A DNA stretch of 64,000 bases. It comes from Tetraselmis striata (lineage: Eukaryota; Chlorophyta; Chlorodendrophyceae; Chlorodendrales; Chlorodendraceae). The stretch is from contig VCJN01003611.1 in assembly GCA_006384855.1 (NCBI GenBank), positions 62,001 through 126,000 of the forward strand, read 5' to 3'. The notes beneath the pieces were generated by a model that was not told the DNA's origin, searched no databases, and worked only from the letters and a program-made list of their open reading frames with translations. This document shows, piece by piece, positions 58,753 to 61,973 of this stretch. The stretch's first letter is position 1, and every line of letters starts with the position of its first letter. The position numbers and the translations under genes are program-made.

Positions 58753-58779
58753 ATTTCAAAGTTGAGTCTGGTTTTGCCA
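58753..58779 (-). repeat. Split direct repeat B2
   Basis: The 27 bp ATTTCAAAGTTGAGTCTGGT plus TTTGCCA are identical to B1. The copy stands 93 bp outside A2 and marks the outer end of the element. Confidence 0.75.
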
Positions 58780-58872
58780 AAAAGGTCGCGCAGGCGGTTT
58801 TACACGGTCAAGAGCCGAAATTGGCAGGAAGGTTTAGCGAAAAGCGTGGAGGGAAAACGGAGTCAGGGGGGG

Positions 58873-59058
58873 CGCTGCGTGGAACGCAGCGAAAACTGGA
58901 AGATGGCAGGCTCAGCTGTTCTGGCTGCTTTTATGTCTACTCGTGCTGCACCCAACAAGGGCGCAACAACAATTACTAGTTCCCGTACCACTGCGCAGCA
59001 CTTGTAGCTGAAAAGCGGTTAGGTCAAGGATGGAAACCCCATAAACTAGTTTAGATCA
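58873..59058 (-). repeat. Split direct repeat A2
   Basis: This is the 186-bp partner of A1. Its outer end is a perfect hairpin, CGCTGCGT-GGA-ACGCAGCG. It abuts B1, sharing one base. Confidence 0.9.
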
Positions 59059-60762
59059 TTTCAAAGTTGAGTCTGGTTTTGCCAGTCTTGAGCGAACGGA
59101 GAGAGCGGTGGATTGACGGAGAAGGGGTAGCGCCAAGTCATGAAGGAGGCACTGGGAAGGCCACCGCTGCGGAGTCATGTTGGACTTGGAAGTGGCGGAG
59201 GGGGCGATGTGTCCAAAGAAGAACCACGCGCCAGGAGAAGGAAGAACGTTGGGGTCGATGTAGTCCAGAACGACATCAGAGTTAGTGGCCCAACCGCCCT
59301 GGTAGCGGATGTGGGACAGTGGCGCTCCAATGGCGTTTGCTGCAGAGGCTGCGCCCTTGCGTAGACTGTGTGAAGTCCAGGAAGTGCCAGCAGGGGGGGC
59401 AGCGTTGACTAGGTTGACCGCTGTAGACAACCAGTCTGACATCGTAGCCGCAGTCCAAGGTTTCGACTGCTCAGCCACATTGACAGCCCAGAAGTTGGAG
59501 GTAGCCAAGCCAACAGTAACCAGGGGGACAGACTGGACGTTGTCGATGAAGTAGCGCAAGAGACGTGCCACTCGAGGGTGCTCGGACACTGGAAGGAGAA
59601 GTACGCGCAGGTCGTCAGGTCCCCGCCGGCCGGCGCGACCCTTCTCGCGGTAGATCTGCAAGGTGATGTTGTAGGTGTCGACATGCACATCTTGCACTCG
59701 ACAGGAGACGCCAGTAAGGCCCCTGGCAAAGAACAGGAAGTTGACAACCGAGGCCAAGAGGGCTCGGTAGTCGAGGTGGGACTCTGGGTAAGGAGCAGAC
59801 ACAATTAGCTCGGCCTTTGAGACGAAGCGGTAAGCTACATCCGCAGGCAGAGGGACACGCAAAGGGGCAGCGTCCAGTCGACGCTGACGTAACATTAACC
59901 CACGTCTTGCCGAAGTGAGGTGTAGGCTGTCCTTGGCGATCGGGACGAGGTTGTGCAGCTCGAAGAAGGTGTTGATGGCAGACAGATAGGGCTGCAGCGA
60001 CTTAGCTGCGATATTCCCTCGCTCCCCGATCCAGGCAACGTACCGACCAACAGTAGCAGTAGTCGCCTCTAGCGGGCTGATGTTCTCGGAGTCGTGGCAG
60101 AACTCAGCGAACTGAGCCAACCTGCCGGAGTAGCTCTTGAGGGTCTGAGCGCTGAGGGAGCTGGAGAGCAGGTCGAGCGTCCGCTGGCCTAGCTCGTCTG
60201 AGCCGAACGCGTCCTGTAGTCGGGATCGCAGTGACGCAGCCCACGGAGCGACAGCTGCGGGCTCGTCGATTACGTAAGTGCGTCGTTTTACTGACAGAGT
60301 GCCACCGCCACGGCTACTGTTTGCAAAGTACTCGGCAGCAGCGGTTAGGTTCCCGGCGGTTGGCCGGTAGTTGCTGGACGGGTTTGCAGTAGCTGTAGTA
60401 CGGGTTTGCGGGGCTAGGTTCAGGTAGGAGGGCCGCCCCGCGCGCCCTTCGCGCTCATAGCGCCTGTCCCGTGCGTAACGTACACGCGCGAAACTTGGTC
60501 GTTGCGAACCGGTTGTAACTCGTAGTGTAACAACCGACGAACGCAGAGATGGGGTTGTAAGAAAGGCGGATGGTTGAGCCGCCATGTGCAGGTGTGCGGA
60601 TGGTTGAGCCGCACTCGGCTGTAGCTGTAAGAAGCGCCGCACCGAGGAAGGTCTAAATGAAGTCTGTAAGGTGGGGGGGTCAGGTCCTGACACAGGGCGC
60701 TCATCCCGCCGCTGAGCTGCAAGGGTGCGTCTTGCGGCGGTCACCGAAAGGTGGCCTCGCAA
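59056..60762 (-). CDS. Tyrosine recombinase of the DIRS/PAT type, 568 aa
   Basis: The enzyme should cut and join DNA through a 3'-phosphotyrosine to circularise or integrate the element. About 170 N-terminal residues are Ser/Ala/Arg-rich. A core-binding domain follows (LLSSSLSAQTLKSYSGRLAQ, ATVGRYVAWIGERG). The catalytic domain shows the first Arg in FLFFARGLTG, a Lys/Arg turn (YREKGRAGRRG), HSLRKGAASAANAIG (His-x-x-Arg), then GGWATNSDVVLDYIDP with the Trp at the second His/Trp position and Tyr as nucleophile. All expected active-site residues are present. The last codons and stop are encoded by repeat B1. It starts 36 nt after the gag-like stop, so both may be made from one transcript. Confidence 0.9.
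   Translation of the reverse strand: MRGHLSVTAARRTLAAQRRDERPVSGPDPPTLQTSFRPSSVRRFLQLQPSAAQPSAHLHMAAQPSAFLTTPSLRSSVVTLRVTTGSQRPSFARVRYARDRRYEREGRAGRPSYLNLAPQTRTTATANPSSNYRPTAGNLTAAAEYFANSSRGGGTLSVKRRTYVIDEPAAVAPWAASLRSRLQDAFGSDELGQRTLDLLSSSLSAQTLKSYSGRLAQFAEFCHDSENISPLEATTATVGRYVAWIGERGNIAAKSLQPYLSAINTFFELHNLVPIAKDSLHLTSARRGLMLRQRRLDAAPLRVPLPADVAYRFVSKAELIVSAPYPESHLDYRALLASVVNFLFFARGLTGVSCRVQDVHVDTYNITLQIYREKGRAGRRGPDDLRVLLLPVSEHPRVARLLRYFIDNVQSVPLVTVGLATSNFWAVNVAEQSKPWTAATMSDWLSTAVNLVNAAPPAGTSWTSHSLRKGAASAANAIGAPLSHIRYQGGWATNSDVVLDYIDPNVLPSPGAWFFFGHIAPSATSKSNMTPQRWPSQCLLHDLALPLLRQSTALSVRSRLAKPDSTLK
59058..59084 (-). repeat. Split direct repeat B1
   Basis: Identical 27 bp to B2. It encodes the recombinase C-terminus LAKPDSTLK, and the stop codon ends at the B1/A2 boundary. 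Confidence 0.8.
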
Positions 60763-60798
60763 GGCTCCTGCAGCTCCGACGAACGGCGCCCCACACCG

Positions 60799-61707
60799 TC
60801 ACTCGTGCTCACCTTCGCGGCCACGTCCACGTCCGCCGCCACGTCCTCGCCCACGTCCGCGACCTGCAGCTGCAGCCGCCACTCGAGAAGTAGCGGTCGC
60901 CTTGGCGTTGCTGGCAACGGTCGCCTCGAAGACACGACGCTCGTAGTCCCGCATGAGGTCCCCAAAGATCGCGGAACCCAGATGCTCCGAAGCAGGCTGA
61001 AAATGCTGGGCTCGCAGCACATCCAGAACACCTTGGTCACCGTGCACACGCTTGATATCATTTAGCCTCCGTAGGAAGGCCAAACGAAACCGAAACGCCT
61101 TGTCGATGGCCTCGGCGTGGTTCCGGGCTCTTGCGAGGTAGGGGGTGAAGTCTTGGTTGTTGGAAGGGACGTAGGGCAGTAGCTCGTCGAGCGCCACGAA
61201 AAGGGCGGCCATGTGGGCCCCGAAACACGACATCCACAAGTACTCCTCCTGGGCCGGCAGACGCCGGTCATCCTGCTTGAGGTACTCGTTCGTTAGGTCG
61301 GTGCTCAAAGGGAAAAGTCCAGGCACTCGGCTGACCGGTCGAACGGCCTCGTAACCAGACTCTGCTCTCTGCAGTAGCTCTGGCACCGCGAGGTAATCAT
61401 CCTCGGCACTCACGGATTTTGCTCCGACACGGCCGCTCTGGGCTAGCTCTAGCAAGTCGGGGCGCTCTGCGGCTCCCCCGCTGCCTGTCGGCTGTCTCGC
61501 GAAGCGCTGCCCTGAGCCGGAGCCATGTGCCCCTTCTCCATCAACAACGCGATCACGAGCCGTCAATTGTGCCACAGCTGTAGCCAGCTCTCGCAGTAAT
61601 GAAGACTGGGCCCTCATATCTGCGTTCAGCGACTGCAACGTCGGCTCAGCGACGGGTTCTTCTCCATCTGACATAGTAACGCACGGACGTACGGACGAGA
61701 ATATCAC
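60799..61707 (-). CDS. Gag-like protein of the recombinase element, 302 aa
   Basis: This is the promoter-proximal ORF of the element. A helical, probably coiled-coil N-terminus (LNADMRAQSSLLRELATAVA) leads into a globular middle (EYLKQDDRRLPAQEEYLWMS, FVALDELLPYVPSNNQDFTP, ARNHAEAIDKAFRFRLAFLR). The C-terminus is an RG-rich nucleic-acid-binding tail (AAAGRGRGRGRGGGRGRGRE). No zinc knuckle is seen. Position, size and the basic tail fit the gag of DIRS-order elements, but the middle domain is not recognised, so gag-like is an inference. An internal start at MSDGEE (11 codons in) is also possible. Confidence 0.75.
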   Translation of the reverse strand: MIFSSVRPCVTMSDGEEPVAEPTLQSLNADMRAQSSLLRELATAVAQLTARDRVVDGEGAHGSGSGQRFARQPTGSGGAAERPDLLELAQSGRVGAKSVSAEDDYLAVPELLQRAESGYEAVRPVSRVPGLFPLSTDLTNEYLKQDDRRLPAQEEYLWMSCFGAHMAALFVALDELLPYVPSNNQDFTPYLARARNHAEAIDKAFRFRLAFLRRLNDIKRVHGDQGVLDVLRAQHFQPASEHLGSAIFGDLMRDYERRVFEATVASNAKATATSRVAAAAAGRGRGRGRGGGRGRGREGEHE

Positions 61708-61787
61708 ACTCGGGTGGCGAGCCGGGTGTGGTCTTGAACAACCTGGGGTGACCTTGCTCGCAACGGGTTACGAGACAGTTTTTACAT

Positions 61788-61973
61788 CGCTGCGTGGAAC
61801 GCAGCGAAAACTGGAAGATGGCAGGCTCAGCTGTTCTGGCTGCTTTTATGTCTACTCGTGCTGCACCCAACAAGGGCGCAACAACAGTTACTAGTTCCCG
61901 TACCACTGCGCAGCACTTGTAGCTGAAAAGCGGTTAGGTCAAGGATGGAAGCCCCATAAACTAGTTTAGATCA
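61788..61973 (-). repeat. Split direct repeat A1
   Basis: This 186-bp copy forms the 5' end of the element on the coding strand and probably carries its promoter. The visible differences from A2 are AACAG/AACAA and GGAAG/GGAAA. Confidence 0.9.

Follow-up and report, generated by a model that had tools for sequence, protein, structure and literature searches.

The 64,000-nucleotide window analysed here, taken from contig VCJN01003611.1 of the green alga Tetraselmis striata, contains on its minus strand a 3,220-bp mobile element (58754–61973) that has the split direct repeats of tyrosine recombinase (YR) retrotransposons and encodes a Gag-like protein and a YR, but no reverse transcriptase (RT). 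The RT-less arrangement recurs throughout a numerous family, in which both open reading frames (ORFs) bear the marks of selection. We suggest, with moderate confidence, that the element is a parasite of RT, which keeps its own Gag and recombinase and is copied through RNA by a borrowed enzyme.

On the coding strand, the element runs A1, leader, gag-like ORF, YR, B1, A2, a 93-nt tail and B2, which bears out the order A1-gag-YR-B1-A2-B2 with near-identical 186-bp A repeats proposed in an initial annotation of the window, and adds the tail between A2 and B2. The A repeats (A1, the left split direct repeat, at 61788–61973; A2 at 58873–59058) are each 186 nt long and 99% identical, which is far beyond chance; A1 begins with TGATC, and the repeat carries CATAAAA at A position 124. 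The B repeats (59058–59084 and 58753–58779), of 27 nt each, are 100% identical. B1, the former of the two, overlaps the end of the YR frame and, by one base, A2, and the B1-A2 boundary holds the predicted circle junction GAAA-TGATC, that is, the internal junction copy that accompanies split terminal repeats in the DIRS order. A leader (61675–61787) connects A1 to the gag-like ORF (60799–61674), which encodes 291 aa with an RG-rich C-terminus. The tail (58780–58872) includes TGTAA at 58800–58804, a possible poly(A) signal; TGTAA has this role in volvocine algae and may not be the signal of the host. A hairpin, CGCTGCG..CGCAGCG, closes the 3′ end of the A repeat (61788–61806 and 58873–58891), and would be placed near the 5′ end of the element RNA.

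The YR ORF is recognized by the Pfam family Phage_int_SAM_1 (E 2.4e-7) and, below the cut-off of that family, by Phage_integrase (E 0.0016). Comparison with the PDB returned Cre (E 0.0073), where HSLR, GGW and DYI of the ORF align with the catalytic H-x-x-R, W and Y; together with the first catalytic arginine, whose position was assigned by eye, the R, H-x-x-R and Y of a tyrosine recombinase are present. Pfam yielded recombinase-type families only for the YR ORF and no meaningful match for the gag ORF, and neither RT, nor the combination of RT and RNase H that defines the DIRS order, nor the methyltransferase domain that follows RNase H in PAT-like elements was found in them. Ten further ORFs of the window were likewise free of RT, nine being without any family and one having two at E 0.1–0.2, in agreement with the lack of RT remarked upon in the initial annotation. 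The structure models are of low confidence (mean predicted local distance difference test of 32.6 for YR and 44.5 for gag), and no relatives of YR or gag were present in viral_contigs, the one collection of this kind searched.

The B-A junction, allowing up to two mismatches, occurs 1,566 times in the genome (757 + 809), compared with 1 for the control. Among the best 134 of 4,770 candidate rows, gag is 97–100% identical and has no internal stop in 132, and it is open to the final codon in 42 of 49 distinct fetched sequences. The best 77 of 8,353 candidate YR rows all belong to this family, with stops in three, and nine of them match the full length of the YR of the window copy. The latter has its stop at codon 568 as a result of a frame change near the C-terminus, whereas 15 of 22 distinct YR sequences end at codon 541 and a further six are broken early. 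A gag row lies on the same contig and strand for 55 of the 77 YR rows, the remaining 22 being without a listed gag row, and the distance between the two is 39 nt in 53 pairs; the other two distances, 3242 and 6445 nt, equal 39 nt plus one and two periods of a 3203-nt tandem array on C764.

Twenty stretches, which are young because they were selected by tails of 99% identity, all show the gag-to-YR joint without inserted DNA. All parts are present in 17 of them, while in the others A1 is truncated (L059) or the element leaves the contig (L069) or stops with the fetched stretch (L070); deletions lie inside YR in L053 and L054 and at the gag-YR joint in L058. The same joint, again with nothing inserted, is found in all three older copies at 84–88% identity, of which the 3′ part of gag is in view. 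The absence of RT next to open ORFs, described in the initial annotation for this one copy, is thus a family trait. The two circumstances which that annotation had named as fatal to its view, a unique deletion in this copy or A and B repeats not shared by others, are ruled out by the recurrent joint and by the abundance of the junction, respectively. Sixteen copies diverge by 0.6–4.0%, which together with the open gag rows and the number of junctions points to recent movement of a very abundant element. A subfamily with a shorter gag (856–858 nt, 92–93% identical) is represented by L055, L056, L061, L062, L066 and L067.

The ratio of nonsynonymous to synonymous divergence (dN/dS), a measure that had been proposed alongside the initial annotation, indicates purifying selection on both ORFs. 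Relative to L051, the YR core of four older copies gives 0.18 (L049), 0.16 (L077), 0.19 (L075) and 0.18 (L076) at dS 0.42–0.62, and the younger L003 gives 0.39 over a short stretch with dS 0.05; for gag the values are 0.08, 0.15 and 0.03, and 0.12 for L003. Both proteins were therefore retained when the element was already without RT.

The gag and YR ORFs form a single frame, which is split by one UGA (60799–60801) and then remains open for 580 codons (YR frame, 59056–60798), with a C-terminal frame unlike that of the commonest copies. The two ORFs set 36 nt apart in the initial annotation are therefore both open but not unlinked, the 36 nt separating the gag stop from the first TTG within the shared frame. 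Of 64 matched places, in which some copies are represented by two fetched stretches, 63 have UGA as the stop and one has a deletion; the next codon is CGG at 59 and UGG at 4. In type II readthrough, the UGA is succeeded by CGG or CUA and frequently by a stem-loop 6–12 nt downstream (PMC11166343). The element has the same leaky-stop motif, UGA-CGG (60796–60801), and a predicted 40-pair RNA hairpin (60694–60792) that begins 6 nt past the stop in the window copy and 8 nt past it in the consensus fold. This hairpin has a folding energy of -61.9 kcal/mol, with z -3.13, and 1 of 200 shuffles folds as stably. In 28 of 29 distinct rows, the one truncated row being omitted, 96.9% of 1,120 cells are paired, compared with 35–46% in slid controls. 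In addition, synonymous change is low directly past the stop (0.08 in that block, as opposed to 0.34 in two gag blocks upstream). Thus, gag-UGA-YR has the layout of known leaky stops, and readthrough in the element is predicted from this likeness.

Insertion can be followed at sites that exist both filled and empty. One copy, on C86, is inserted in a B repeat of a PAT-like element, where the filled site reads CAAAA-T-GATC...GAAA-TGTACGGGG and the empty site CAAAATGTACGGGG. When the flanks of 22 sites were joined, 21 matches spanned the joint; 20 of these, from eight sites, were examined, and the best rows show clean joins at six sites (L054, with a 6-nt difference nearby, L063, L065, L067, C175 and C186) and ambiguous ones at L061 and C210. 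Insertion at C86 and at these six sites therefore occurred without target site duplication, as is characteristic of the DIRS order. It follows from the empty sites that the first base of A belongs to the element and the base after B2 to the target, such that B2 comprises 26 nt of element (58754–58779), position 58753 is a target base, and the limits of the element are those given above. The target base after B2 is T in 27 of 30 cases and C in three. Left flanks (n = 54) never have G at -2 or C at -4, have T at -3 in 37 and G or A at -5 in 46, while the right flank prefers G at +2 (14 of 30) and A or T at +7 and +8. This preference resembles the junction GAAA/TGATCTAAAC, as compared without a shuffled control, and such likeness would be expected of a YR that recombines circles with DNA of weak similarity to them. 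Tandem arrays, in which gag rows are spaced 2916–2917 nt on C2249 and tail rows 3203 nt on C764, have the periods that would be expected if circles join at B-A or at B2-A1.

The A repeats of a given element also vary together. Across 24 copies with both A repeats, every one of the six variants seen more than once is common to the A1 and A2 of a single element. Five elements have seven such shared states between them, whereas 10,000 random re-pairings gave 0.36 on average and 5 at most. The shared variants are confined to A positions 43–89, upstream of CATAAAA, whereas private variants occur along the whole repeat, a pattern that fits a cycle in which the RNA lacks the 5′ part of A1 and this part is rebuilt from A2. 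The four-gamete test is failed by 1,416 of 7,260 site pairs (16 comparable copies of 19 tried), irrespective of distance (283 of 1,524 near and 1,133 of 5,736 far), which suggests that the copies are mosaic.

A second young family, termed L042-type (L042:490–870 on C1077; left flank of L017 on C175), has in common with the Gag-YR element the start of A, a TCTGCCATCTTCCAG stretch, TGTAAAAC and the ends of B. No gag or YR match was found over 0.5 kb in a young copy or 1.2 kb in an older one, and the best 40 of 780 candidate rows are all at least 99% identical; the family is a possible satellite of the Gag-YR element. The hairpin of the A repeat is altered on both sides in an L042-type copy, with pairing kept (CGCTGCC..GGCAGCG). 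The TGTAA of the tail is retained in five of six copies that have this stretch, the otherwise different L042-type included, and reads TGTGA in the older copy of L052.

We infer from these observations that the element makes use of an RT. It would code for the Gag-like protein and, by leaky reading of the UGA, a Gag-YR fusion; its RNA would span from A1 to the signal in the tail and be packed by Gag with some Gag-YR, and an RT acting in trans, possibly from PAT-like elements of the same genome, would copy it into DNA. The B1-A2 unit would provide the ends missing from the RNA, A1 being rewritten from A2, as the shared variants suggest, whereupon a circle with a B-A junction could form. The YR would then recombine the circle into short, weakly similar sites without duplication, consistent with the empty sites and the target preference. 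The initial annotation had offered mobilization by an RT in trans as one of two readings; it is favoured by the concerted evolution of A1 and A2 and by the conserved gag.

A candidate helper is the PAT-like element already met at C86. The search of the genome for the Dam-type methyltransferase family gave 122 rows, including a uniform group with 696-aa frames. One member (C2465, 291600–294650; L078–L079), a partial copy in view with the RT region outside it, has a Dam domain (E 2.9e-7), a weak RNase H match (E 0.27) and two copies of a 68-nt repeat, positioned as B1 and B2 of a B1-A2-B2 arrangement. It also has a frame that we take to be YR-like from its R and GGW..Y motifs, with no Pfam match. 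Rows of at least 97% identity over a 270-aa query, the last 270 aa of the PAT-like frame, number 33, of which 26 have frames of at least 690 aa, two of them with an internal stop, indicating a young element. The RVT_1 profile search appears swamped by one or a few abundant retrotransposon families, all 150 scored rows lying at 134–140 bits, mostly in long frames of up to 1,660 aa, and is uninformative on DIRS-type RT.

Several points weigh against a cycle that borrows an RT. The cycle is deduced from DNA sequence, and the gag label comes from position and composition. The proposed donor is a candidate, seen over the last 270 aa of its frame and with a weak RNase H match. Moreover, BLASTP does not match the PAT-like YR to that of the element (best E 3.0), the alignment between them being weak (141, with a mean of 84, a standard deviation of 14 and a maximum of 131 in 200 shuffles), and the ends of the two elements share short chance-level matches only; with ends and YR different, the PAT-like element has no obvious handle on the element RNA. 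Gene conversion could also yield the likeness of A1 and A2 and the mosaic copies. As to the leaky stop, a longer 231-nt stretch folds at z -1.91 (8 of 200 shuffles as good), covariation is weak, with one pair altered on both sides (equalled by 316 of 500 shuffles), dN/dS is 0.33, 0.50, 0.26 and 0.80 in the 70 codons past the stop, and other YR blocks of low synonymous difference (0.09 near 60423, 0.13 near 59268) lack explanation.

An RT-free DNA transposon appears unlikely. In this reading, a circle would be cut out and put back elsewhere by the YR, copy number would rise through replication or repair in the host, the route proposed for Cryptons, and the split repeats would be relics or sites of recombination. 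The absence of RT from the element and of a proven donor suits such a transposon, and neither a YR nor precise insertion nor tandem arrays require an RT. However, co-variation of A1 and A2 would be unexpected if both were carried as DNA, short of gene conversion, and the conserved Gag-like ORF and leaky-stop layout rather suit a cycle in which RNA is packaged. Excision leftovers, consisting of A2-tail-B2 alone, are also rare, since all but one of 40 tail rows are part of larger copies and the remaining one (C1018) is ambiguous; a solo A2-tail-B2 as a separate small transposon is rejected on the same count.

We consider it quite unlikely that the element arose by an old internal deletion from a Ngaro-like or PAT-like retrotransposon and is amplified by this RT-bearing parent, gag and YR having been retained because they act in cis. 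This differs from the borrowed-RT reading in origin rather than in mechanism, and the family may descend from an RT-bearing ancestor through an old deletion. The arrangement A1-ORFs-B1A2B2 without methyltransferase does match Ngaro, as described in PMC8547959 and PMC4157794. Nevertheless, among the matches listed no RT-bearing relative has the YR or ends of the element, although a rare parent could escape; the seven listed Phage_integrase rows comprise four bacterial-looking genes and three older copies of the family. A PAT-like parent recognizable by shared ends is not supported either, none of the 15 methyltransferase rows listed (C1–C358) lying within 7 kb of a listed B-A junction. The four bacterial-looking integrase/recombinase genes (L071–L074) are probably on contaminating contigs.

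The second reading of the initial annotation, that Gag and recombinase alone suffice, with a packaged or circular form multiplying without RT and A1 rewritten from A2 in DNA, is distinctly unlikely in our estimation; it is less favoured than RT in trans and keeps some standing because no donor is proven. A domesticated or inactive element, conserved by gene conversion and by selection for a recombinase useful to the host, could account for the six early-broken YR sequences and is very improbable in view of the recent movement indicated by copy divergence, stop-free gag rows and junction number.

Lacking the RT of the DIRS order and having the long repeats that Cryptons do without, the element is placed as a variant that would work like a split-repeat YR element. 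It shares A1-ORFs-B1A2B2, a Gag-like ORF1, a YR and the lack of a methyltransferase with Ngaro-like elements, which carry RT (PMC8547959, PMC4157794). Compared by description, it differs from them in having no RT or RNase H and in joining gag and YR in one frame through UGA. PAT-like elements, including TOC3 and Kangaroo, have split direct repeats and a YR and are reported in green algae (PMC4157794, PMC3266345, PMC8226300); they have a methyltransferase (PMC4157794), which, like RT and RNase H, the element lacks. SIRE of Trypanosoma cruzi, the A2-B2 part of VIPER, is likewise an RT-less relative of a YR retrotransposon, but is short and described as a truncated non-autonomous form (PMC6681497), whereas the element keeps a selected Gag and YR. 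Cryptons also possess a YR without RT, and circle integration has been proposed for them, but they have no long direct repeats (PMC3212892); here, the A repeats measure 186 nt and the B repeats 27 nt, and a Gag-like ORF is present. No RT-less Gag-YR element was found in the accessible portions of the open literature. TOC1 of Chlamydomonas, also a relative of YR retrotransposons, is not known to carry an RT. It has been termed retrotransposon-like (PMC7722844).

In the view of Poulter and Butler, as related in PMC6681497, YR retrotransposons arose when a recombinase element and an RT merged. If Gag and recombinase were to suffice, YR elements would have a third mode of copying, and an RT-free Gag-YR element, if true, would be a living link from Cryptons to YR retrotransposons. 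How split-repeat elements are copied is poorly understood, and the family makes this cycle testable with regard to the RT that serves it, the rebuilding of A1 from A2 and the readthrough into Gag-YR. A numerous lineage with a selected Gag and YR and no RT shows that the modules of such elements can separate and still thrive.

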